NCBI RefSeq assembly: GCF_027247405.1
Contig: NZ_CP097463.1
Span: 1,302,001-1,366,000 of the forward strand
DNA: 64,000 bases
DNA from: Jatrophihabitans cynanchi
Lineage (GTDB): Bacteria; Actinomycetota; Actinomycetes; Mycobacteriales; Jatrophihabitantaceae
Direction: 5' to 3'
Shown here: positions 31,843-64,000 of the stretch, in pieces
Layout: each line of letters starts with the position of its first letter
Numbering within the stretch: the first letter of the stretch is position 1
Program-made: the position numbers and the translations under genes
The notes under the pieces: model-generated
What the model was told of the DNA's origin: nothing
The model's database searches: none
The model's input: only the letters and a program-made list of their open reading frames with translations

Positions 31843-32720
31843 AGGGGTCCCACCTTCTTCGCCGGACTGGAACTGACGGCGCCAGCCGATCTGGCGCCCA
31901 CCACCGCCTGCCGGAACTCCGCCGAGTCGAGTACGTCCTCCGGCGTCCCGCTGGCCACCACACGTCCAGCCTGCAGTCCCAACACATGACTCGCGGTCGC
32001 TCGGACGAGCGCCATGTGATGCTCTACCGCGAGCACGGTCGTCCGCCGCGAGCGACGGATCTCGGTGAGCAGGGCTTCCACACCCGAGCGCTCGCTCGCG
32101 TCCAGTCCGGAGGAAGGCTCGTCGAGCAGGAGGAGCCGGGGACCGGACACGATCGCACGAGCGATGTCGGCAAGCTTGCGCTTTCCATAGGGAAGCGACC
32201 CGGCCTTCAGGTCTCGGCAGTCCGAAAGGCCGACGAAGTCAATCGCCAGTTCGGCTCGCTCGCGAGCCTGACGTTCGCGCTGACGCACTCGGCCGAAGCG
32301 CCACAGCTGTTCCACCAACGAGTAGCCGATGCCGAGGTGGAGTCCGCAGATGACGTTCTCCCAGACAGTTGCGCTCTCGATCAGCCGCGGATCCTGGAAG
32401 CTGCGGCCGATACCCGCTCGAGCGGCGGCTGCAGGTGTCCAGCCGGCGACCGCCTTGCCGCAGAACTCGATCGTCCCCGTCGTTTGCTGCCGGATCAGGC
32501 CACAGACCGCATTTAGCAGCGTCGTCTTTCCTGCCCCATTGGGACCAACGATCGCACTCACCTCAAACTCGCACAGGTCCAGGCTGATCTCCGAGAGCGC
32601 ATAGATGCCGCCGAACGCGACGGAGAGGTCACGCGTGCTGATCAGGTGGTCAAGGGGTTCCCAGGTGGCGTGGTCGAAAAGCCGCGCGACCGCCGGTTCG
32701 CTGAGCGCATCACTCTGCAT
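31830..32720 (-). CDS. livG: ABC transporter ATP-binding protein, LivG type
   Basis: This is a 296-residue ATPase. The Walker A motif is IVGPNGAGKTTLLNAVCGLI, the signature loop is the LivG-type LKAGSLPYGKRKLADIARAI, and Walker B is LLLLDEPSSGLDASE. A 25-residue N-terminal extension precedes the domain. It provides half of the energy-coupling dimer with LivF. The 11-nt overlap with livF and 13-nt overlap with livH indicate coupled expression. Confidence 0.94.
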   Translation of the reverse strand: MQSDALSEPAVARLFDHATWEPLDHLISTRDLSVAFGGIYALSEISLDLCEFEVSAIVGPNGAGKTTLLNAVCGLIRQQTTGTIEFCGKAVAGWTPAAAARAGIGRSFQDPRLIESATVWENVICGLHLGIGYSLVEQLWRFGRVRQRERQARERAELAIDFVGLSDCRDLKAGSLPYGKRKLADIARAIVSGPRLLLLDEPSSGLDASERSGVEALLTEIRRSRRTTVLAVEHHMALVRATASHVLGLQAGRVVASGTPEDVLDSAEFRQAVVGARSAGAVSSSPAKKVGPLWTK

Positions 32721-33507
32721 CGACGTACCCCGCAGCCAGCAGTTCGCTGCCTCGGAACTCCTCGGCCGGCCCGCTCATCCGGGTCCGGCCGGCACTGAGC
32801 AGATAGCAATGGTCGGCCACGTCGAGCGCGAAGCCGGTGCTCTCATCGACGAGCAGAACGGAGGTGCCCTGCGCCGCAACTTCCCGGACCGCGTCGAACA
32901 GAGGCTCGTGCAGGCTGTGATGCAGACCTAGCGTCATCTCGTCGATGATCAGGAGCCTCGGATCGGTCAGCAGGCCTCTTGCGATTGCCAGCATCTGCTG
33001 CTGGCCGCCGCTGAGTCGACCGGCCTGCGATCGCCGACGTTCCCACAGAATCGGAAACATGTCGTAGACCCGTTGGAACGCTGCGGCCCGCTCTGCGCGA
33101 GGCGGCAACTGACCAAGCGCCTCGAGGTTCTCGCGAACGGATAGCGATGCGAACACCTTCTTGCGTTCGGGGACGAAGGCCAACCCGATCCGCGCTGTCC
33201 GGCTCGGCTCCATGTTGGTGGTGGCCCGCCCCATCAACGAAACCGAACCGTCGATGACCCTCGCACCTTCGCTGCGGAGGAACCCGCTGATCGCGCGAAC
33301 GGTGGTGGTCTTGCCGGCGCCATTCGGGCCGAACAGCGCTACCACCTGGCCGACCTTGACCTCGACCGAGACATCGAGGATGCCGAGGGCGCCGTTCCGA
33401 TAACGCACGCGAAGGCTGTTCGCGGACAGGACTACCGGCGCGCCAGGGGCGCTTGGTGGGCTCTCGCCCGTTTTGGTCACGATTGGTGAGGCGGTTGGTG
33501 GCCGCAT
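32710..33507 (-). CDS. livF: ABC transporter ATP-binding protein, LivF type
   Basis: This is a 265-residue ATPase with Walker A LFGPNGAGKTTTVRAISGFL, signature AGRLSGGQQQMLAIARGLLT and Walker B LLIIDEMTLGLHHSLHEP, in which the family DEP is DEM. ATG 33507 has AAGGGG upstream. It is the first gene of the Liv operon. Its promoter should lie in the 77 nt before it, which hold AT-rich sequence and an inverted repeat at 33578-33603. Confidence 0.92.
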   Translation of the reverse strand: MRPPTASPIVTKTGESPPSAPGAPVVLSANSLRVRYRNGALGILDVSVEVKVGQVVALFGPNGAGKTTTVRAISGFLRSEGARVIDGSVSLMGRATTNMEPSRTARIGLAFVPERKKVFASLSVRENLEALGQLPPRAERAAAFQRVYDMFPILWERRRSQAGRLSGGQQQMLAIARGLLTDPRLLIIDEMTLGLHHSLHEPLFDAVREVAAQGTSVLLVDESTGFALDVADHCYLLSAGRTRMSGPAEEFRGSELLAAGYVDAE

Positions 33508-33577
33508 GAACACCCCTTCAGCGTCTGACCGAGCACGGCGGACCGCTCGAGTACGCCAAGACTAAAAACGTTGAAAT

Positions 33578-42853: not shown

Positions 42854-42905
42854 GTGGAGCTGAGGGGACTCGAACCCCTGACCCCCACACTGCCAGCGGG
42901 GTGGT
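42854..42905 (-). repeat. Left att-like segment, tRNA/tmRNA 3'-end mimic
   Basis: Read on the minus strand it ends in a T-arm (AGGGG, loop TTCGAGT, CCCCT) followed by CAGCTCCAC, as in the 3' end of tRNA-like molecules. The 5' half of the gene is absent. It is homologous to 54081-54132, with compensating changes in the T stem. Confidence 0.6.
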
Positions 42906-43025
42906 GGTGGTTCAGCGAGTCCTTGTCTTCCGGCCGTCGAGGATACGATGAGCCATATTTTACCGCCAAGGTGTGGTGTCTTCGATGTCAGCCGATGTCG
43001 GCTCGTGCCGCCGCGTGGCGGCGGG

Positions 43026-43046
43026 TCGCAGGGTCAAACCGGGGTC
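43026..43046. repeat. 21-bp repeat, copy 1 of 3
   Basis: This is a copy of TCGCAGGGTCAAACCGGGGTC, shared with 44007-44027 and 54254-54274. It belongs to the integrase-upstream region of the left att segment. Confidence 0.6.
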
Positions 43047-43071
43047 CGGTCGGAACCACCCTATTGGGTGC

Positions 43072-43374
43072 ATGGACGTGTCGTGCGGCAGCCGCGTAAG
43101 CGGGCCGCGTATCGCCTACATCAGCGACGACATCATCGTCGAACAGGCCTTCGTCGCCGCCGGACTCGGCGTGACCACCTCTCCGCGGATGGCGCTGCGC
43201 TCACATCATGCGGCGGGGGTATACGCGAGCGACATCCCGCACTTTTGCCGCCACATCTACGTCACGACCTACGGCGAGCCACCCGATCCGCCAGCCACCG
43301 CGGCCTTCGTCGCGGCCTTGCAACACGCCGTCACCGACCCGAGCTGGCGGACCGTCGTCGATACCTCAGACTGA
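43072..43374 (+). pseudogene. Integrase start stub joined to a LysR effector-domain fragment
   Basis: The first codons (CGGCAGCCGCGTAAGCG region at 43086-43102) copy the start of the integrase found at 54312. The reading frame then turns into the C-terminal effector domain of a LysR regulator (RIAYISDDIIVEQAFVAAGL, then GVTTSPRMALRSH and HIYVTTYGEPPDPPATAAF). No DNA-binding domain is present. It is a deletion junction between an integrase and a LysR gene and is unlikely to be functional. Confidence 0.7.
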
Positions 43375-53895: not shown

Positions 53896-54080
53896 TCCCC
53901 AACTACGCCGAGATCGCTTGAATCCGCACCCCACCTGCGGTGTGGTGTTGCTGTTCAACGATCAGATCTTAATAGCTAGCGGCATCCAGAGTCGTGCATC
54001 GAAGTGGTCAACTAAGGGTCAGACCCCCCGAAATTCGGCACGGCAAATACGCAGAGACCCCTAAAAATGGGAGATCCGAA
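53896..54080. other. Intergenic stretch before the right att segment
   Basis: No gene seen. It contains the short palindrome GGGTC-A-GACCC (54016-54026), whose counterpart GGGGTC-A-GACCCC (42790-42802) precedes the left att segment. Confidence 0.55.
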
Positions 54081-54132
54081 GTGGAGCTGGCGGGACTCGA
54101 ACCCGCGACCTACACACTGCCAGCGGGGTGGT
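54081..54132 (-). repeat. Right att-like segment, tRNA/tmRNA 3'-end mimic
   Basis: On the minus strand the T-arm (GCGGG, loop TTCGAGT, CCCGC) is followed by CAGCTCCAC. It is homologous to 42854-42905, and the homology continues to 54330. It is not a complete tRNA: the anticodon and acceptor regions upstream do not pair properly. Confidence 0.6.
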
Positions 54133-54253
54133 ACCGGTTCAGCTACTCCTTGTGTTCTCGGGCCTCCGCGCTACGATGAGCCCTATTTTATCGCAGATAT
54201 GTGGGGCCGGCGGTGCCATCTGATGTCGGCTCGTGTCGCCCGATGGTGGCGGG

Positions 54254-54274
54254 TCGCAGGGTCAAATCAGGGTC
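54254..54274. repeat. 21-bp repeat, copy 3 of 3
   Basis: TCGCAGGGTCAAATCAGGGTC lies just upstream of the integrase start and may be an arm-type integrase site. Confidence 0.55.
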
Positions 54275-54311
54275 CGCCCGAAACCACACCGTTGAAACCG
54301 TGGGAGGTGTC

Positions 54312-55649
54312 ATGGGGCAGTCGCGTAAGCGCGTCGGCCGCGACGGCAAGGCCCGTTACACCGCCTACTACGACGACGTCGCCGGTCGGCGCCGCTCGGC
54401 CGGCACGTTCGCCTCCCGTCGTGACGCGGATCGGGCCTGGCAGCGGGCCGATGCCAAGACCGCGGAGGGCCGGCACAGCGACGCTGGCCGCGGGCGGCAA
54501 GCCTTCGCCCGCTACGTGGAAGACGAATGGTTCCCGAACCATTCGATCGAGCTGACCACCCGGCAGAACTATCGCTACGTGCTCGACAAGCACATCCTGC
54601 CGGTGTTCGGCGGCTACAAAATGATCGCCATCCTGCCCGCGGACGTGCGGACCTGGGTCACGCACCTGAAGGACCAGGGAGTCAAGCCGGCCACGATCAA
54701 GTACTGCCTGTCGGTGCTGTCGGCGATCTTCACCACCGCGCTCAACGACCAGATCACCAGCCTGCACCCGTGCGCCGGCATCAAAGCCCCGACCGTGCCA
54801 CCGGCAACGCGGCGGATCATCACCCCCGAGCAGTACGCGCGCATCCACGCCGCCCTGCCCGACGAACAGATGCGGCTGCTGGTCGAGACCGACATCGAGA
54901 CCGGGCTGCGCTGGGGCGAACTGGTCGAACTCCGAGTCCGCGACCTACGCGTGGCTGAAGGCGCGGTCATCGTGTCTCGGGTCGTGATCGAGATCGCCGC
55001 CAAGTTCCACCCCAGCGGCGGCCGATTCCTGGTCAAGGACTACCCGAAGGACAAGGCACCCCGCCGGGTCGGGCTCTCCGCTCACGTCCGGGACCTGCTC
55101 GCCGCCCACGTCACCGGCAAGGCGCCTGACGACCTGCTCTTCGCCGCGCCCGCGCGCGATCGGGCAAGCAAGCTCGAACCGGTCGGCGACCAGATGGAGT
55201 TCGGGATGACCGAGCCGAACGCGGTCGGCAAATCCTACCGGCACGGCACCCTCACCGCCTACAACATGGTCCCGTGCCGCTGCCAGCATTGCCGGAACGC
55301 GTACGCCACCTACCGCGCCGAACGCCGCGCCAACGGTGCCGACAAGTCCCGCGCCGCCAACCCGCCACCTCTCGGCGAGACTGATCCGCACATCTCCCGC
55401 TCCTGGTTCCGGCAACAGATCTGGGAACCCGCCCTCGCCGATGCCGGGCTCGGGTTCCACGTGCGCGTGCACGACCTGCGCCACGCCCACGCCTCCTGGC
55501 TGCTCGCCGGCGGCGCCGACCTGCAATCCGTCAAAGACCGAATGGGACACGCCCGACTCACCACCACCGAGCAATACCTGCATTCCCTCCCCCACGCCGA
55601 CGCCGCCGCCATCGCCGCCCTCGACCACATCCGCAAACGAACAACCTGA
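54312..55649 (+). CDS. Tyrosine recombinase (phage-type integrase) with CxCxxC insert
   Basis: This is a 445-residue integrase. The N-terminal AP2-like arm-binding domain is GRDGKARYTAYYDDVAGRRR, and the SAM-like core-binding domain follows (DEWFPNHSIELTTRQNYRYV). The catalytic domain has Arg in ETGLRWGELVELRVRDL, HDLRHAHASWLLAGGADLQS, GHARLTT and the nucleophile in TEQYLHSLP. Between its strands is an insert with C322, C324 and C327 (NMVPCRCQHCRNAYATYRAE), a short zinc-finger-like element. ATG 54312 has GGGAGG upstream. It should act on the att segment at 54081. Length is normal apart from the insert of about 60 residues. Confidence 0.94.
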   Translation: MGQSRKRVGRDGKARYTAYYDDVAGRRRSAGTFASRRDADRAWQRADAKTAEGRHSDAGRGRQAFARYVEDEWFPNHSIELTTRQNYRYVLDKHILPVFGGYKMIAILPADVRTWVTHLKDQGVKPATIKYCLSVLSAIFTTALNDQITSLHPCAGIKAPTVPPATRRIITPEQYARIHAALPDEQMRLLVETDIETGLRWGELVELRVRDLRVAEGAVIVSRVVIEIAAKFHPSGGRFLVKDYPKDKAPRRVGLSAHVRDLLAAHVTGKAPDDLLFAAPARDRASKLEPVGDQMEFGMTEPNAVGKSYRHGTLTAYNMVPCRCQHCRNAYATYRAERRANGADKSRAANPPPLGETDPHISRSWFRQQIWEPALADAGLGFHVRVHDLRHAHASWLLAGGADLQSVKDRMGHARLTTTEQYLHSLPHADAAAIAALDHIRKRTT

Positions 55650-56188
55650 CCGGTGCGACGACACGAGCCGAGCAACCGAAGACGTCAACCTGCGTTCAGC
55701 AGCCCCCGGCCGAGATCCGCAATGGCGGACGAGCCGGGAACTGCCGAACACACGACGCCTCCGTGCTTATACCCGCATATACAACCCCGGCTGTATGAAC
55801 CAAGTGCTATGAACCAAGTGCTATGACTCGGAGCCGGGCCCGACCGATTCGCGCGACCGCGTTCACCTCGATCGGTAGCCGTCGCCCATCCAGGACCGGC
55901 CGCGTCGGCCGACGCCGTCACAGAGCATGACGAACCTTGGCAACCGCAACCGCATCCGCGTCGGAACCGATAGCGAGCACTCGTCCGCAGGCCCTCGTCT
56001 GCGCATATGAATAGATCTGTGCGCGAGCGGCCGCTGTCACGCATGTCCGGCCTTCACCGGGCTTGCCACCGGGCGCGTCTTACGAGACCGTTCGCGCGTC
56101 CAAGCCGGTCGGCTGCCGCCGCCGACCCCGCGTCTATGCCGGTGGACGTTCCGCTTTCGCAGATGACCGCGGGCTTCGGTGGGCGGCG
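55650..56188. other. Non-coding stretch after the integrase
   Basis: No supported gene. It contains a 14-bp tandem repeat TATGAACCAAGTGC (55794-55821). Confidence 0.5.
55794..55821. repeat. 14-bp tandem duplication
   Basis: TATGAACCAAGTGC is present twice without spacer, followed by TATGA. It is probably a replication-slippage product. Confidence 0.7.
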
Positions 56189-56614
56189 CTACAGGCGGGT
56201 TGCCGTCAGATACTGGGCGCTCGCGGCCGCGGCTGACGACTCTGGGTTCGGTCGGCCGTACTTCGCGGCGAGGTCGTCATGGTTGTCGAAGACGACGCTC
56301 CAGCCTTGGTCCGCGAGCCGGTAGGCGTTCTCGCGATCAACGCCGCTGACGCCCGCGCTCGGTGTCTCGGACGCGCCGACAAACACCCGCATCCGCTGGT
56401 ACGTCTCATCGTCGGGACGAGGCGGCGCCATCGCGGCCTTGGCGCGCGTGCTGCCGGGCACCGCGGTCGCGGTAATCGTGTCAAGCACAGCGGTGGCATC
56501 AGATGGTGAGAGATAGGCGAGCACTCCCTCCTCGAGCCGCGCAGTTGGCAGGCCCGGATCGAATCCCGCCGCGGTCAGGTCCGCGAACCAAGAGCCGCAC
56601 AGGTCAGTGGACAC
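56189..56614 (-). pseudogene. C-terminal fragment of a SAM-dependent methyltransferase
   Basis: This 141-residue reading frame matches the C-terminal part of the actinobacterial leucine-carboxyl-methyltransferase-like family: LTAAGFDPGLPTARLEEGVL, then SPSDATAVLDTITATAVPGS and GWSVVFDNHDDLAAKYGRP. The SAM-binding N-terminal half is missing, so it cannot be catalytic. It abuts the permease fragment that starts on the opposite strand. Confidence 0.8.
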
Positions 56615-57606
56615 GAGGCCGCAAACACCGCCTACAACGGCTTCCCGGTGCTGTCGTCAATCCTCGCCCAACACAGCTTCCTGCCACGCCAAATGCACAC
56701 CCGAGGCGACAAGCTCGTCTTCAGCAACGGCATCATCCTGCTGTCACTGTTCACGATCGCGCTCATCATCGGCTTCGACGCGCGAACGGACGCGCCCACC
56801 CATCTCTACATCGCCGGCGTGTTCACCAGCTTCACGCTGAGCCAAGCCGGGATGGTCAAGCGATGGAACCGGCTGATCCGGACCAGCCGCCGAACCGTCG
56901 CAACCAGATGCGGCTCTCGCGAGCCATGAACCTCATCGGGGCGATCGCGACCGGACTGGTCCTCGGGATCGTCATCTACACCAAACTCGTCCAAGGAGCG
57001 TGGATCGCGATCAGCGCGATGATCATGATCTTCGCCATGATGAAGGGCATCAGCCGGCACTACCGCACGATCGCCAGCGAGTTGGATCTCGCCGGGTCCA
57101 GCAAGCCGGTGCTGCCGCCGCGCAACCACGCGCTGATCCTGGTCTCCAAGCTGCACCTGCCGACCATGCGCGCGATCTCCTACGCGAAGGCGACCCGGCC
57201 GGACACGCTGCAGGCGCTGACCATCTAGATCGATGAGGCCGAGACCGCCCAGCTCCTCGACGGCTGGACCCGCCATGACATCGACGTCCCATTGATCATC
57301 CTCGAATCCCCCTACCGTGAGGTCACCAGGCCCCTGCTCGAACACCTCGGTCGCATGCGCCGTGACCGCCCGCGTGACGTGGTGATGGTGTTCCTGCCCG
57401 AATACGTCGTCGGGCGCTGGTGGGAGCAACTTCTCCACAACCAGAGCGCGCTGCGGCGCAAGGCGCGCCTCCTGTTCGAGCCCGGCGTGATGGTGACCAG
57501 CGTGCCGTGGCAGATACGCTCCACCACCCGCGCCGAGCGGCAGTTGGTGGCCGATCCCGCCTCGTCCGACCTCAGCCACGCCTCAACGCCGCATGAGATT
57601 CCCTAG
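56602..57606 (+). pseudogene. APC-family permease fragment, frameshifted and with an internal stop
   Basis: The fragment begins in mid-protein with ANTAYNGFPVLSSILAQHSF. It reads SNGIILLSLFTIALIIGFDA to about 56900, shifts frame, and continues MNLIGAIATGLVLGIVIYTK to a TAG at 57226-57228. The same frame resumes after the stop with DEAETAQLLDGWTRHDIDVP and FLPEYVVGRWWEQLLHNQSA, ending at 57606. These are the last helices and cytoplasmic tail of an amino-acid permease. The N-terminal two thirds are gone. Confidence 0.85.
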
Positions 57607-57613
57607 GTCAACC

Positions 57614-58130
57614 TCAAGCGGCCTGGAGCATCACCGCCGATCGGTGGAGGTCGGGGTTGTAGGCGACGCCGTCGTGTCAGCAGCGCCAGACGACGCGGAT
57701 CCAGGCTCGGGCCAGGATGCGCACGGCGTGCGGGTGGCGTTTGCCGCGGTTGATGGCGTCGGCGTAGATCTTGGCGGCCCAGGGGCTGGCGTGGCGGGAG
57801 TCGTCGGCGAAGTCGATGATCGCGTTGCGCAGCTTGTCGCAGGCGTAGTGGAATCCGACGACGTGCATCTTGCCCTGGCTCGGGTGACCGGGGCGACTCC
57901 GGCCAGGGCAGCGAGGGATTCCTCGTCGGGAAAGCAAGATCGGACGTCGCCGATCTCGGCCAGCATTGCCGCAGCGCGGACGCCGTGCCCGGCCTTGGGC
58001 AGGCTGGTGAAGATGTGGGCGTCGGCGTGCGCGTCGAGACGTTCGATGATCTCGGCTTCGAGTTCGCGTTCCTCGCGGCGCACGGTCTCGATGGCACGCA
58101 GCAGTCCCAGCACGCAGACGCCGCGGCCGT
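57614..58130 (-). pseudogene. IS110-family transposase C-terminal remnant
   Basis: The pieces ALAGVAPVTRA and KMHVVGFHYACDKLRNAIID then FADDSRHASPWAAKIYADAI, with RILARAWIRVVWRC, and finally HDGVAYNPDLHRSAVMLQAA run to 57614. A frameshift lies near 57890, and a TGA replaces the expected Trp codon at 57677-57679. The catalytic DEDD half is absent. It is a different IS110 lineage from the copy at 9911. Confidence 0.85.
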
Positions 58131-58259
58131 CGGCCTCGGTAGCACTGAGGCCCGCTGGCGAACTACCGCACCGTCGACAGCTGCGCCGGCGAACACCTCC
58201 TCACCGCCGAGGATCCACTCCCCGCCGACCTGCGCGAACCCCTCGCCCTGATCACCTGA

Positions 58260-58537
58260 CCTGCGCAGGTGCGCACGAATTTGGACCAAGTCGGTCAGAC
58301 CGGAGCTGAGTCCGCGCGCCGTTCGTCCCGACGCACGCCATGCCGGGCTGAGTGGCGGAGCCCCGCCGCTCCCCTCACGGACCCGCTGGATTCCTCACCG
58401 CGGCGCAAGCTCGGACGGCGAATCGCAGCGGCGAGCACACACGTTGTGACGACGGCCAGCGCTCCAGATAAGTCATCAAACGCGAGTGGATCGGCGACGC
58501 GGTCTTCGACGCTTGGCAGGCGGCTTCATCCTGGTGT
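58260..58537. other. Non-coding stretch before the fused transporter gene
   Basis: No gene seen. The bases just before it (58155-58259, plus strand) encode 34 residues (ANYRTVDSCAGEHLLTAEDP and onward to a TGA) that look like the end of a lost gene. Confidence 0.4.
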
Positions 58538-61258
58538 TCATGCCAGGTGGACCGCCCGGGTTGCTACATCCAGTTCCTCGGAGCCTAGGTAAGCCGATCG
58601 CACGACCGTGGATGCGGCGACTTCATGTGGGGTGCCCCGGAAGATCTCTTCGCCGAAATCGAGGACGTAGATGTACTCGCAGACGTCCATTACGAGGCGC
58701 ATATCGTGTTCGACCAGCAAGATTCCGATCCCCCGTTCTTCCACAACTTGCCGCAAGACGTGCCCGAACGCTTCGGTCTCAAACGCGTCCAGGCCGGAGG
58801 ACGGTTCGTCGAGTAGCAACAGGGTGAAGTCGCCAGCTAGACAACGTGCAAGCTCGATCAGGCGCCGCTTCCCGGTTGATAACGAGGCCACGACCGCGTC
58901 CGCGAGCTCGGTCAGTCCGCATAGTGCAATCGCGTCGTCGGCTGCGCTGACCGCAGCGTTGCGATCCCCGCGCATGGGAACCAGCTGGCGCACGATGTTG
59001 CTACCCGCGAGCGCGCCCTCGTGCCCAAGGGTGACGTTCTGGCGCACCGTCATGGAATCCCAAAGCTCGATGTGTTGATAGGTGCGCCCAATGCCGCGGC
59101 GCGCACGGGCGGCAGGACTTAGACGCGATATGTCGGCGCCGGCGAAAGTAACTCGACCGCCGGTCGGGCGGATCAGCCCGGAGCACACGTTGAAGATTGT
59201 TGTCTTGCCCGCACCGTTCGGGCCGATCAACCCGGTGATAGTCCCGGTATGCGCTTCGAGATCGAAGTTGCGTACCGCAGTGAGGCCGCCGAAGCGGACG
59301 GTTAGGTCTTGGACCTCCAGTCTTCCCGGCGAGATACGACGACCGCGACGGATGTCACGTTTGGGTGCCGTCACCTGTCTCGCTTTGGGCGCCTCGGGGT
59401 TCGCTCCGCCCCACCGGTCGATCTTCGCGCGGACCCCGGCCGGCAAGCCCTGTGGCGGCAGAATAGCCACGCTGATCGCCGAGAGCCCAAACAGAATTTG
59501 CAGGTAGTTGCTCATCCCGGTCGGGTGCCAGTAGGAGCTAACGATGGTCAGCGCTATGGCTCCGTTGAGGGCGTACCAGGGCGCGATACCCGACATGATC
59601 GCTAACAAGGTGACGTAGGTGGCTGACGTGAACGCATCGAACGACTGGCCGGTCGGAGCGACGATGTACATGCCGTAAAGCGCTCCCGCGATTGCCGCGA
59701 AGAAGGCAGATATGCAGAAAACAAGCAAGCGCGTGAGATTGACACTGACTCCGGCGGTTGCGAGAGCCTGTGGCGAGTCGGCCATAGCTCGCAACAATCT
59801 TCCCAGCCGGCTTCGGACTAGGGTCACAACGACTAACGCTGTTACGCAGGCGACCGCGAGAACAACGTAGTAGAAGCCGGTATCTGTATCGAGCGCGAGC
59901 CATGAGAGGTGCGGCTTCGGCATCGCGAGCCCGAAGCCATCGAGGCCGAACATCCAGCTCGACTGATAGAACACACTCTGCACGAGCAGACCGAAGCCGA
60001 GTGTCGCCAGTGCCAAGAAGGTGCCGGATAGGCGGATGGCAGGGATCGCGATGATCGCTCCGATCGGCACAACGACCAGGCCGGCCAGAACGAGTGCGAC
60101 TAACCAGGGGATCCCGGCTTCATGAGCCAGTTTCGAGAATGCCACTGCCCCGATTGCGGCGAAGGTCGCATGACATAGCGCGACCTGCCCAGAAGTCCTC
60201 ACCAAGAGGCCGACCGACAGGAAAAGGACGACGTAGCTGAGCATCGCAGTCCAGTCGCCGAGGTGGTAGCCGGCCCACAACGGCACTGTGAAGAGAAGTG
60301 TCAGAGTGGCAATCCCCGTTCCTATCTGAAAGCGCGGTGGTAGTGACCAGCGGACGTGCAACTTTCGTTTCATCATGGATCTGACGACGAGCCGGGCTTT
60401 CGGCATGACAAGCATCAAAACGAACAAGATGATGAACGGCATGGCCGATGGGATCGCGCTGACGATCTGGTCAGATGTGTGGATGTATTTCGTGGACACG
60501 CTCGTGGCCAGCCCGATAAACAGGCCGCCAACGTACGTCAGCGGAAGGCTCGAGAACGATCCCAATGCAGCTGCCGCGAAGGCCTGGATCACCAGGGCCG
60601 TCAGCGTTCCGACGTCGACGCTTCCCAAAGTGTCGACGAGCAGCGGGCCGGACAGGGTCGCGAATGTGCAGCCGATGATCCACGCGACCCGCCTCACGCG
60701 CGTGGGGCTGGTACCGGACAGGTCGAGGAGTTCTGCGTTGTCGACGACGGCACGGATCGACTTGCCGAGCCGACTGTTGCGGAAGAACACGTACAGCGCG
60801 ACCGTTGCGATGAGCGCAACGGCGACGATGATGATGCGGTCGACGGTGACGGCGACGCCGAAGATGTTAACGACGTTCACGGGCAAGAACGGTTCGACCG
60901 GCAGCGGAAAACTTCCGAACGCGAGCTGGCAGGTATTGGTGATTAGGAGCAGTATGCCGACGGTGGCGACGATCCGCATCGTGAAGTCGGCGCCCTCCAG
61001 GGCCTTGGCGATCCGTTCCATGATGAGGCCGAACACGAGACCCGCGCCGACGACTGAGGCGAGGGCTGCGAGTGGCCAGGACACGTGATGCTGCACGTGC
61101 AACGCATAGAAGATGTACGCCGATACGGTCGCGATTGCGCCGTGTGCGAGATTGAATATGTTGGAGACTTTGTACGTGAGCACGAGGCCGAGTGCTATGA
61201 GCGCGTATACCGAGCCGCTCGTCAGCCCGATGATGAGGTACGGGAGGAGGTCGTGCAT
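58538..61258 (-). CDS. Fused Liv-type ABC transporter: LivH-LivM-LivG in one chain
   Basis: This 906-residue membrane protein joins three normally separate subunits. Residues 1-295 are LivH (GLTSGSVYALIALGLVLTYK, SNIFNLAHGAIATVSAYIFY). Residues about 300-610 are LivM (LLVRTSGQVALCHATFAAIG), and about 647-906 are a LivG ATPase (GLIGPNGAGKTTIFNVCSGL, ASLSTGKRRLIELARCLA, LLLLDEPSSGLDAFE). Residues 611-646 are a basic linker. There is no LivF partner in the window, so the ATPase may act as a homodimer of the fused chain. The binding protein is encoded upstream. A transporter of this kind should import organic acids or amino acids. Confidence 0.93.
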   Translation of the reverse strand: MHDLLPYLIIGLTSGSVYALIALGLVLTYKVSNIFNLAHGAIATVSAYIFYALHVQHHVSWPLAALASVVGAGLVFGLIMERIAKALEGADFTMRIVATVGILLLITNTCQLAFGSFPLPVEPFLPVNVVNIFGVAVTVDRIIIVAVALIATVALYVFFRNSRLGKSIRAVVDNAELLDLSGTSPTRVRRVAWIIGCTFATLSGPLLVDTLGSVDVGTLTALVIQAFAAAALGSFSSLPLTYVGGLFIGLATSVSTKYIHTSDQIVSAIPSAMPFIILFVLMLVMPKARLVVRSMMKRKLHVRWSLPPRFQIGTGIATLTLLFTVPLWAGYHLGDWTAMLSYVVLFLSVGLLVRTSGQVALCHATFAAIGAVAFSKLAHEAGIPWLVALVLAGLVVVPIGAIIAIPAIRLSGTFLALATLGFGLLVQSVFYQSSWMFGLDGFGLAMPKPHLSWLALDTDTGFYYVVLAVACVTALVVVTLVRSRLGRLLRAMADSPQALATAGVSVNLTRLLVFCISAFFAAIAGALYGMYIVAPTGQSFDAFTSATYVTLLAIMSGIAPWYALNGAIALTIVSSYWHPTGMSNYLQILFGLSAISVAILPPQGLPAGVRAKIDRWGGANPEAPKARQVTAPKRDIRRGRRISPGRLEVQDLTVRFGGLTAVRNFDLEAHTGTITGLIGPNGAGKTTIFNVCSGLIRPTGGRVTFAGADISRLSPAARARRGIGRTYQHIELWDSMTVRQNVTLGHEGALAGSNIVRQLVPMRGDRNAAVSAADDAIALCGLTELADAVVASLSTGKRRLIELARCLAGDFTLLLLDEPSSGLDAFETEAFGHVLRQVVEERGIGILLVEHDMRLVMDVCEYIYVLDFGEEIFRGTPHEVAASTVVRSAYLGSEELDVATRAVHLA

Positions 61259-61291
61259 CTTGTCTCCGCGGCTCGGAATGTGCGGGTCGGA

Positions 61292-61335
61292 AGGGTGCGG
61301 GGCCGGCCAAGGGGCGATGCACCCTGACCGGCCCC
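61292..61335 (-). promoter_or_regulatory. Interlocking inverted repeats between binding protein and permease genes
   Basis: On the minus strand the order is GGGGCCGG, AGGGTGC, CCGGCCCC, GCACCCT. The 8-bp and 7-bp stems interleave (A-B-A'-B'), so they are mutually exclusive or pseudoknot-forming. They sit 28 nt after the binding-protein stop, a place where expression of the permease is often damped. Confidence 0.55.
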
Positions 61336-61362
61336 TCGTAGGTTAGCCGTGACGAATTTGGT

Positions 61363-62655
61363 TCACGGTGTCACGCAGTGCGTTGTGTCTGCACCAACGT
61401 TCGACCACTGTCCATCCTTCAGCTGTGAGATGTAGTAGCAGTTGTCGACGTGAAGCTTGTCGCTGGCGCTAAACGTCAGCGGCCCCGTCAGGCCGTCGAG
61501 TGTGTTGTTCTTGATTGCGTACAAGCCGGGAAGGAGATCATCACCCGTTGACGTGGGGGTGAGCTTGGCGTTTTCGGCCGCCGTCCTGAACAGCTGAAAC
61601 GCCACCCACGCGCTCTGGACGTACGCGTTATAGCCGGCATTGGTCAACATGCCCGGATCGTACTGGTTGATCGCAGCGAAGTAGTCCTTCTGAGCCTGGG
61701 TGCGCTGTTCGTCGAACGGCCACACGTCATCCACCAGATAGAGCGTTGCGCCCCTCAGATCCGAATCCTTATCCCATGCGGGGTTGGCCAGACCGTTAGT
61801 GGTCAGGTAGGCACCGGCGTAGCCCTGCCGCATGCACGTCTTGATGATGTTCAGCGTCACCGTCGGCGAGATTCCGACGGCGGCGATGTCTGCCTTCGAG
61901 TTCTTCACCGAGAGGCAAGGGGCCGTGAAGTCAGGCGAGGTCGGCGATACTGTCGTGGTGTAAACGATCTTGACCCCGGTCGCCGCAGCCGCCGAGCTCA
62001 GCGCGGCTTCGAACTGCTGCACATTCTGCCCAGCACCTTGCGCAAGCAGATTTGCCACCGTCTTGAATCCGAGGCTCTTGTAGAGCTCGAATTGAGCGCT
62101 GATCAGCTCGCTGACGCCCAATGCGGCCGGGAATCCGTACTTCGGAGAGCCCGTCGTATTACCTGTTGCAGCCCCGCCGATGATCGGAACGTGCTTCTGC
62201 TCGAGATAGGGCGTCCAGGAGCCGAATGTGCCGGCCTGCGAACCCACGATCGCGACCACATGGTCCTGCTCGACCAACTTCTTGACGGCGCTCAGACCCT
62301 GGGCAGGGTTGCCAGCGTCGTCGACCGCGATCACCTTCACCGGGTGTCCGTTGATGCCGCCGTGTGCGTTTGTCCACTTGGCCCATACATCGGTGATCTT
62401 CAGGAAAAGCGGATCACCGAACGCGCCGCTTGCCGTCTGCACTGATCCGATTGTGATCGGGGAGCCCGTCGGAGTGTCTCCAGTACCGGTGGACGAGCTG
62501 CTTGCCGTCGTTGAACTCGTGGCGGCTCCGCCGGCGGTGCTGCTGCAGGCGGCCAAGGTCAGCGCGAGGCATGCCGTCGCTGGAATGACGATCTTCCATC
62601 CTCTTGCCGGCAGACGCTTCTCCGTCGCGCGACGTGAACGGTAAGTACTTCGCAT
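61363..62655 (-). CDS. ABC transporter substrate-binding lipoprotein (LivK-like)
   Basis: This 430-residue exported binding protein has a lipoprotein signal (KIVIPATACLALTLAACSSTAGG with the lipobox Cys), a Ser/Thr-rich linker, and a type I periplasmic-binding fold starting with ITIGSVQTASGAFGDPLFLK. It ends with GPLTFSASDKLHVDNCYYIS, typical of the Leu/Ile/Val-binding family. It lies immediately upstream of the fused LivHMG gene and should feed it. A palindrome lies about 100 nt upstream. The ligand is not predictable. Confidence 0.93.
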   Translation of the reverse strand: MRSTYRSRRATEKRLPARGWKIVIPATACLALTLAACSSTAGGAATSSTTASSSSTGTGDTPTGSPITIGSVQTASGAFGDPLFLKITDVWAKWTNAHGGINGHPVKVIAVDDAGNPAQGLSAVKKLVEQDHVVAIVGSQAGTFGSWTPYLEQKHVPIIGGAATGNTTGSPKYGFPAALGVSELISAQFELYKSLGFKTVANLLAQGAGQNVQQFEAALSSAAAATGVKIVYTTTVSPTSPDFTAPCLSVKNSKADIAAVGISPTVTLNIIKTCMRQGYAGAYLTTNGLANPAWDKDSDLRGATLYLVDDVWPFDEQRTQAQKDYFAAINQYDPGMLTNAGYNAYVQSAWVAFQLFRTAAENAKLTPTSTGDDLLPGLYAIKNNTLDGLTGPLTFSASDKLHVDNCYYISQLKDGQWSNVGADTTHCVTP

Positions 62656-62755
62656 TACCTCTCCTCTGTGATGACTTGGCGAGCGTCCAGGTGGGTATTA
62701 CGTCACGTCCGCGCTACATGACCCGCCGACGACAGATGCGAGTAGTTGTCTGGGT

Positions 62756-62771
62756 TTGAATTCGTATTCAA
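62756..62771. promoter_or_regulatory. Palindrome upstream of the second binding-protein gene
   Basis: TTGAATTCGTATTCAA has perfect 6-bp arms around TCGT. The adjoining AGTTGTCTGG (62744-62753) matches one half of the GntR-type operator. It is a possible control site for the transporter operon. Confidence 0.4.
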
Positions 62772-63030
62772 GATAGGCGCACCCGAGATCGACGTCAAGG
62801 TCTCGCAGGCAAGCGGCGTTACATGGGCCACGCGGTGTGGCCAAGCTGGCCGCGTTTCGCGACCACGACGAAGCGGTGTGGAGTGACGTCCCACGCCTTC
62901 GCCGACTTGAAACCCTCGGGTATGTCGGCGCTTCCGGATGAGGGTGTAGTTCCTGGCACGTCGGTGCCGGGGCGCGGATCGAGATCTTCCGATGATGGGA
63001 GTTCTCACACCGCCCACTCGGAAGACCTCG
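62772..63030. other. Intergenic stretch upstream of the ISL3 remnant
   Basis: No supported gene. Short reading frames here show no family similarity. Confidence 0.45.
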
Positions 63031-63690
63031 ACGTGCCTGACGCCACCTTCTTCGTGCGCCCTGACCTGGGCGCGTTCCGCCGTCTTGACGAGCTCGGGTT
63101 GGGGGTCGTCGGGCACTACCCTTCAGCCGGATCGGGCGGTGCTGGCATGTCGGGTCGAGCCCGGCGAGTTCGACCGGTGGTGCCGTCGGTGCGGGGGGGA
63201 AGGAGTACCGCGCGACACGGTGACCCGACGGCTGGCGCACGAGCCGTTCGGGTGGCGGCCGACCACGCTGCTGATCACGATCCGCCGCTACCGATGCGCG
63301 TCGTGCTCTCCGGTGTGGCGGCAGGACACCGCTCGCGCGGCTGAGCCGCGGGCGCGACTGTCGCGGACGGCGCTGCGGTGGGCGTTGCAGGCGATCGTCG
63401 TGCAGCACCTCACGATCGCCCGCGTCGCCGAAGCCCTCGCAGTCACCTGGAACACCCGCCAACAGCGCGGTACTCGACAAGGGCCGCCGAGTGCTGATCA
63501 ATGACCCGCGCCGCCTCGATGGCGTGGCCGTGATCGGCGTCGACGAGCAGGCCGTGCGGCACACCCGACGGGCGACAAGTACGTCACCGTGGTCCTCGAC
63601 CTCACCCCGGTGCGTGACGGGGCCGGCCCGGCACGGCTGCTGGACATGGTCGAAGTCCGCTCCGAAGGGCCGAACTGAAGAAGCTCATCA
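63031..63690 (+). pseudogene. ISL3-family transposase, frameshifted remnant
   Basis: In order but in changing frames it reads PDATFFVRPDLGAFRRLDEL, QPDRAVLACRVEPGEFDRWC, TLLITIRRYRCASCSPVWRQ (zinc-finger region), RLSRTALRWALQAIVVQHLT, and INDPRRLDGVAVIGVDEQAV with GDKYVTVVLDLTPVRDGAGP, the start of the DDE domain. At least three frameshifts occur, and the rest of the DDE domain is missing. No terminal repeats were identified. Confidence 0.85.
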
Positions 63691-63827
63691 CCACGATCAG
63701 TGCTCACGTCCCGGCCGAACTCACCGAACTGATCACCCTCGGGTGCGTGTGATCACCTGACTTGGCCCCACTTCGGCCGGGCGGTTTCTAGCGATCGTTG
63801 CAACACCGGAGGTTTCCGGGAGCTGCT

Positions 63828-64000
63828 ATGGCGGGTCGTGGTCGGCGTGGTCGCGAGCCAGATGTTGACAAGCGTGAGCGGTTTGCTGAGCTGATCGCGC
63901 AGGGGGTGAGTAACCGGCGGGCGTGCCAGCTCGTGGGCATCGCGCGCAAGACGGGGACACGCTGGCGGTTGGGGCGCACAGTCACGCTTCCCGACGGTCG
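63828..64000 (+). CDS. IS30-type transposase, N-terminal part (cut by window edge)
   Basis: ATG 63828 opens a frame to the window end (about 57 residues): GRGRREGREP-like basic start, then VDKRERFAELIAQGVSNRRA and CQLVGIARKTGTRWRLGR. This is the helix-turn-helix start of IS30-family transposases. The catalytic domain lies beyond the window, so intactness cannot be judged. It follows the ISL3 remnant by about 140 nt. Confidence 0.7.
   Translation, partial: MAGRGRRGREPDVDKRERFAELIAQGVSNRRACQLVGIARKTGTRWRLGRTVTLPDG

Follow-up and report, generated by a model that had tools for sequence, protein, structure and literature searches.

A LivH-LivM-LivG fusion of Jatrophihabitans cynanchi as the probable large subunit of a two-chain HAAT importer with a displaced LivF

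The 906-residue LivH-LivM-LivG chain encoded in the stretch of 64,000 nucleotides analysed here (the window) is probably the large subunit of an ordinary two-chain HAAT importer whose livF has been displaced, with an unpaired LivF encoded at C1:1411990-1412742 as its partner in trans. The fused chain would combine the two permease domains with the LivG ATPase, the second ATPase being a LivF made separately; livF would have moved from its downstream position, probably by mobile elements breaking up the cluster, and the unpaired LivF would join the fused chain from its distant locus. The domains are abbreviated H, M, G and F below. The fusion cluster has the following features:

58538..61258, minus strand: LivH-LivM-LivG triple fusion, 906 aa (ORF translation, Pfam, NCBIfam, alignment)
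60413..61237, minus strand: LivH-type permease domain, residues 8-282 (Pfam BPD_transp_2)
59459..60256, minus strand: LivM-type permease domain, residues about 335-600 (the other BPD_transp_2 stretch, for which Pfam gave a count but no boundaries; the approximate limits were taken from alignments)
58577..59320, minus strand: LivG-type ATPase domain, residues 647-894 (Pfam, NCBIfam, alignment, motifs)
61363..62655, minus strand: substrate-binding protein of the fusion cluster, Peripla_BP_6, 430 aa, upstream of the fusion, open frame

All 906 codons of the minus-strand frame 58538-61258 are open. Pfam placed BPD_transp_2 on two stretches of the chain (best 8-282) and ABC_tran on residues 663-820, and 12 other fusions were aligned with the whole frame at 45-54% identity; the three-part chain proposed from the sequence alone is thereby confirmed by its intact frame, its Pfam and NCBIfam domains and its aligned relatives. 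The two BPD_transp_2 permease domains, the LivG-type ATPase with its motifs kept (a match at family level, under the LivG equivalog cut-off) and the Peripla_BP_6-type binding protein beside the fusion are those of a HAAT (Liv-type) importer. LivG was the best NCBIfam model for residues 647-893, with 203 bits against an equivalog cut-off of 362 bits. The motifs of the fused LivG domain are GPNGAGKT, LSTGK, LLLLDEP and LLVEHD, so that Walker A, Walker B and the H-loop are preserved; a signature ending in Lys (LSTGK) occurs in 1/44 fused LivGs, and LSTGQ in 23/44.

To locate LivF at related loci, each domain was assigned to whichever of five domain types gave the best BLAST hit. Of the 48 triple-fusion loci examined, taken over all groups, 44 have LivF immediately downstream: 42/44 of the main classified set, 2/3 further named loci and 0/1 extra locus of genome G019 (L187). 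The 48 include near-copies (L060, L061, L063 and L064; L068 and L069; L085 and L086) and are therefore not independent. The four loci without an adjacent LivF are the window, L094 (8.2 kb of downstream sequence covered), L187 (2.4 kb read) and L114 (2.9 kb of contig). The main set of 44 was obtained from 54 sources after removal of ten without an HMG frame (L014, L034-L039, L091-L093). Also left out were L009-L011, L017 and L023 as shorter copies (of L030, L031, L036, L032, L094), L018 and L022 as HM fusions covered by L034 and L035, and L083, L084 and L088, which have no G domain in the stretch; class matches without a locus stand outside the count of LivF positions. LivF was scored as present where it was cut at an end (L072, L085-L087), aligned over only 86 residues (L020) or split over two frames (L065); L016 is cut within H at the contig end. 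At L065:4317-5400 (genome G228) the split LivF beside the triple fusion reflects a frameshift or an assembly fault.

With LivF downstream in 44/48 loci, the standard machine is HMG plus F, with two permeases and two ATPases in two chains. A LivF gene just beyond the cluster in relatives, which the sequence-only reading had named as the observation to set against its own proposal, is what most of these loci carry. A LivF next door is nevertheless not absolute, because L094, L187 and L114 also lack one in the sequence covered and the 11 LivFs found in genome G019 at E <= 1e-25 each adjoin a LivG or lie within a fusion. In that genome the 17 kb read around the C12 fusion contain no LivF, and at the same threshold none of its LivFs is unpaired. 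The LivG of the C12 fusion pairs tightly with that of the C32 fusion (100/100). The reciprocal arrangement, in which LivH, LivM and LivF form one open frame and LivG is separate, was found at three loci:

L186:2715-5510 (G019:C20): reciprocal HMF fusion, separate LivG just upstream
L130:4486-7647 (Streptomyces longisporoflavus): reciprocal HMF fusion, separate LivG just downstream
L135:4411-7161 (Sphaerisporangium fuscum): reciprocal HMF fusion, separate LivG just downstream

This arrangement follows the same principle, with one ATPase fused and the other free.

The genome of the fusion (one contig, 99.67% complete) encodes nine LivFs: each of the eight complete other Liv systems has its own, and one is unpaired. 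The earlier statement that no LivF is encoded is thus correct for the fusion cluster, but not for the window (LivF at 32710-33513) or for the genome. The two LivFs that bear on the argument are:

32710..33513, minus strand: LivF of the separate first Liv system and sole LivF in the window; not a likely partner
C1:1411990-1412742, minus strand (same strand as the fusion): unpaired LivF, 250 aa, about 49 kb from the fusion

When the whole genome was searched with a fusion-partner LivF, the best match was C1:1411996-1412727 (E 1.6e-75, 51%), followed by one at 9.0e-59. No H, M or G was found near the unpaired LivF in the 58 kb around and before it (L033, L089, L090). Its gene belongs to a tight row: it shares 4 bases with the gene upstream, for which Pfam gave no match, and CO-dehydrogenase flavoprotein-like and 2Fe-2S-like genes come close behind it. 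In the LivF tree (50 rows) the unpaired LivF falls into a clade of 31 rows (100/97) together with 28 triple-fusion partners and two HM-fusion partners (L034, L035), and the other eight own LivFs as well as the partners of group-B fusions (see below) fall outside it. The row fus_L014, which also sits outside with the own LivFs, is mislabelled: it belongs to an H plus MG system, not to a triple fusion. Mean identity to the 28 clade-A LivFs is 0.511 for the unpaired LivF and 0.373-0.458 for the other own LivFs; within the clade-A set, the corresponding values are 0.469-0.581 for 27/28 LivFs and 0.373 for the split L065. The LivF at 32710, proposed in the sequence-only reading as a possible donor, is the least similar of the nine (0.373) and lies outside the partner clade; as a partner it is disfavoured by both tree and identity. 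Across individual relatives, the identity values for the fusion and for the unpaired LivF correlate at only 0.08 (true partners, all pairs, 0.69). With the branching inside the clade poorly resolved as well, the LivF tree shows clade membership and not shared history. Apart from the Liv genes themselves, no gene linking the unpaired-LivF locus with the fusions of relatives was found in the 11 loci compared.

Because it shares a clade with the fusion partners, has the highest identity to them and is left over where every other cluster owns a LivF, the unpaired LivF is the likeliest partner. Alternatively, any of the eight complete Liv systems might lend its LivF to the fused chain, much as multitask ATPases do in sugar importers. 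Such sharing of one ATPase among several sugar importers is described in PMC7658222, and LivF sharing is plausible for the G019 C12 fusion described above. In the present genome, however, all eight candidate donors lie outside the fusion-partner clade, and the best of them (0.458) stands behind the unpaired LivF as the better candidate; we regard borrowing here as unlikely.

With seven LivF queries, tblastn detected no trace of LivF in 54000-58700, in 61200-64000 or in the 20 kb beyond (lowest E 0.053), and the best match in 54000-58700 (E 0.056) falls within the fusion itself; a decayed livF in the flanks was accordingly rejected. A livF in the same cluster, usual in relatives though not strictly defining for HAAT importers or for the HMG group A introduced below, is thus lacking at the window fusion. 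Mobile DNA was found on both sides:

57631..58113, minus strand: IS110 transposase remnant (Pfam, NCBIfam), downstream of the fusion, on the side where relatives carry livF
63740..64000 in the window and on to 66035, plus strand: 2296-bp element encoding an HTH-plus-rve transposase, on the upstream side of the binding-protein gene

Elsewhere in the genome, two sites match the IS110 remnant at the DNA level (73%). The 2296-bp element, the transposase of which we take to be IS30-type, is one half of an inverted pair (63740-66035 and, beyond the window, 71503-73798; 99.4% identical) with IS21-type genes between the copies; such a pair could invert the intervening segment. Further observations were made in the surroundings. 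A broken frame at 62992-63504, just upstream of the binding-protein gene, appears by eye to be an ISL3-type transposase remnant. Broken transporter-like frames at 56600-57600 (by eye amino-acid-permease-like) have a 66% DNA match at C1:220235-221131. A tyrosine-recombinase-like gene (54201-55649, by eye) adjoins an apparent partial tRNA 3' end (about 54085-54120, by eye), where ARAGORN reported no tRNA, and a 77% match over 262 bp joins 42854-43109 and 54081-54342, possibly as island ends.

With transposase remnants or genes on both sides and livF absent, we infer that the cluster was broken by mobile DNA. The same flanks, free of any livF trace, would also suit a defunct importer that has lost livF and of which the fusion is a recent relic. 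This reading is improbable: 906 codons have stayed open, Walker A, Walker B and the H-loop are kept, and the frame of the binding protein is open as well.

The motifs of the two ATPase types bear on their pairing. The H-loop carries His in 56/56 LivG and Gln in 47/50 LivF (the exceptions being two own LivFs, one of them that at 32710, and the split L065), and the third signature residue is Gly in 50/50 LivF as against 0/56 LivG. ABC ATPase dimers are built head to tail, and with this geometry the LivG His and a canonical LSGG come together in one site only when the LivG nucleotide site meets the LivF signature. As far as sequence motifs can tell, these differences favour the pairing of HMG with F over a LivG homodimer carrying four permease domains. 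The dimerisation of the ATPase across two fused chains, put forward in the earlier reading, would give four permease domains and two identical ATPases. Although it would account for the missing neighbour at the window and at L094, L187 and L114, which likewise lack LivF in the stretch examined, it would leave both sites with a non-canonical signature, and two ATPases would have to serve four permease domains; we consider it very improbable.

The fusion itself is of an already known kind, routine in many related bacteria, and is not new. A stop-free full-length HMG match was present in 34/393 other genomes of the class, counted by eye from the table as one stop-free match with start residue <=10 and end >=893; the count omits G315, which has one stop, and fusions whose match is broken in two. 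The class-level search gave matches in 48/394 genomes, own included. Among 60 relatives and the own genome, 9/61 match the fusion at E <= 1e-90, with G007 and G059 showing stops within the match and being in fact HM+G and H+MG systems. Named plasmid-borne HMG fusions occur in Rhodococcus jostii RHA1, Streptomyces sp. NBC_00564 and Rhodococcus sp. BH4, and RefSeq labels two of them 'branched-chain amino acid ABC transporter permease/ATP-binding protein'. The idea that a three-part chain is rare therefore does not hold. A single-protein scan of named genomes returned no relative, and an alignment scan of named genomes, the patterns of which were two generic ATPase patterns, gave an HMG frame in 3/80 retained loci (still three at a relaxed threshold). 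Outside the actinobacteria, an HMG frame with LivF downstream was found in L110 (Dechloromonas MAG) and L112 (beta-proteobacterial MAG), both according to BLAST domain calls on MAG contigs. Literature searches on the fusion and on LivG/LivF heterodimers, in a library with few subscription journals, listed no paper that names the HMG fusion in its title or in the opening of its abstract; passages of PMC2821768 describe the Liv subunits as separate.

In the LivG tree the fusions form two groups, A (35 rows, 33 triple fusions, 100/99) and B (11 rows, 87/76). The window fusion, with H-M-G order in one chain and its position in the tree, belongs to A, the named members of which are actinobacterial. 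Unfused systems lie between A and B, and A also encloses the HM-plus-G systems L034 and L035. Fusion or fission has probably occurred more than once, but many inner branches of this tree are weak. That an assembly or sequencing error deleted stop codons or livF, for which no supporting point was found, is scarcely credible given the same fusion in many other genomes and named records and an own genome in one contig at 99.67% completeness.

For the two-chain importer with a displaced LivF, assembly of the fusion with the unpaired LivF, their co-expression and mobile elements as the cause of their separation are what we infer from the comparisons above. As a counterpoint, the unpaired LivF, lying in a CO-dehydrogenase-like gene row, could serve something else. 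A tentative and rather doubtful extension is a split importer, with the fusion and binding protein in an islet bounded by mobile elements and the second ATPase in the CO-dehydrogenase-like row 49 kb off, so that uptake would take place only if both loci are expressed. Since the fusion sets H:M:G at 1:1:1 and LivF alone remains free, the LivG/LivF pairing is easy to test, and a genome in which one of nine LivFs is apparently a displaced partner offers a natural setting in which to study the exchangeability of Liv ATPases in trans.

The binding protein (61363-62655) shows low similarity to HAAT-type binding proteins only (best E 1.3e-14), the ligands of which are unstated or varied by name. The RHA1 and Streptomyces fusions sit among dehydrogenase, thiolase, enoyl-CoA hydratase, thioesterase and amidohydrolase genes, and these neighbours hint at a possible role in carboxylate or CoA-linked catabolism. 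'Branched-chain amino acid' is a family label, and the substrate of the window importer need not be one.

Among the known systems, the fusions of Streptomyces sp. NBC_00564 (WP_332880747.1) and Rhodococcus sp. BH4 (WP_081559128.1) bear the RefSeq permease/ATP-binding name given above, and the equivalent fusion of Rhodococcus jostii RHA1 pRHL2 (WP_011600149.1) is named 'ATP-binding cassette domain-containing protein'. As in the window, H, M and G follow in that order on a single chain in all three (about 910-940 aa; 99% of the query covered by tblastn), the BH4 fusion belonging to the more distant group B with 28.9% identity. They also share a binding-protein gene in the same cluster, which lies upstream in RHA1, BH4 and the window and downstream of livF in Streptomyces. 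Unlike the window, all three have a separate LivF-type ABC ATPase gene directly downstream. The own genome contains partial versions with two domains only, namely two LivH-LivM fusions and one LivM-LivG fusion (C1:4363508, 3620057, 3538096), each with the remaining parts and a LivF beside it. In Escherichia coli LivKHMGF (HAAT family) the subunits are separate chains, and their domain types are those of the fusion, LivG being the best NCBIfam model for its ATPase domain (203 of 362 bits).
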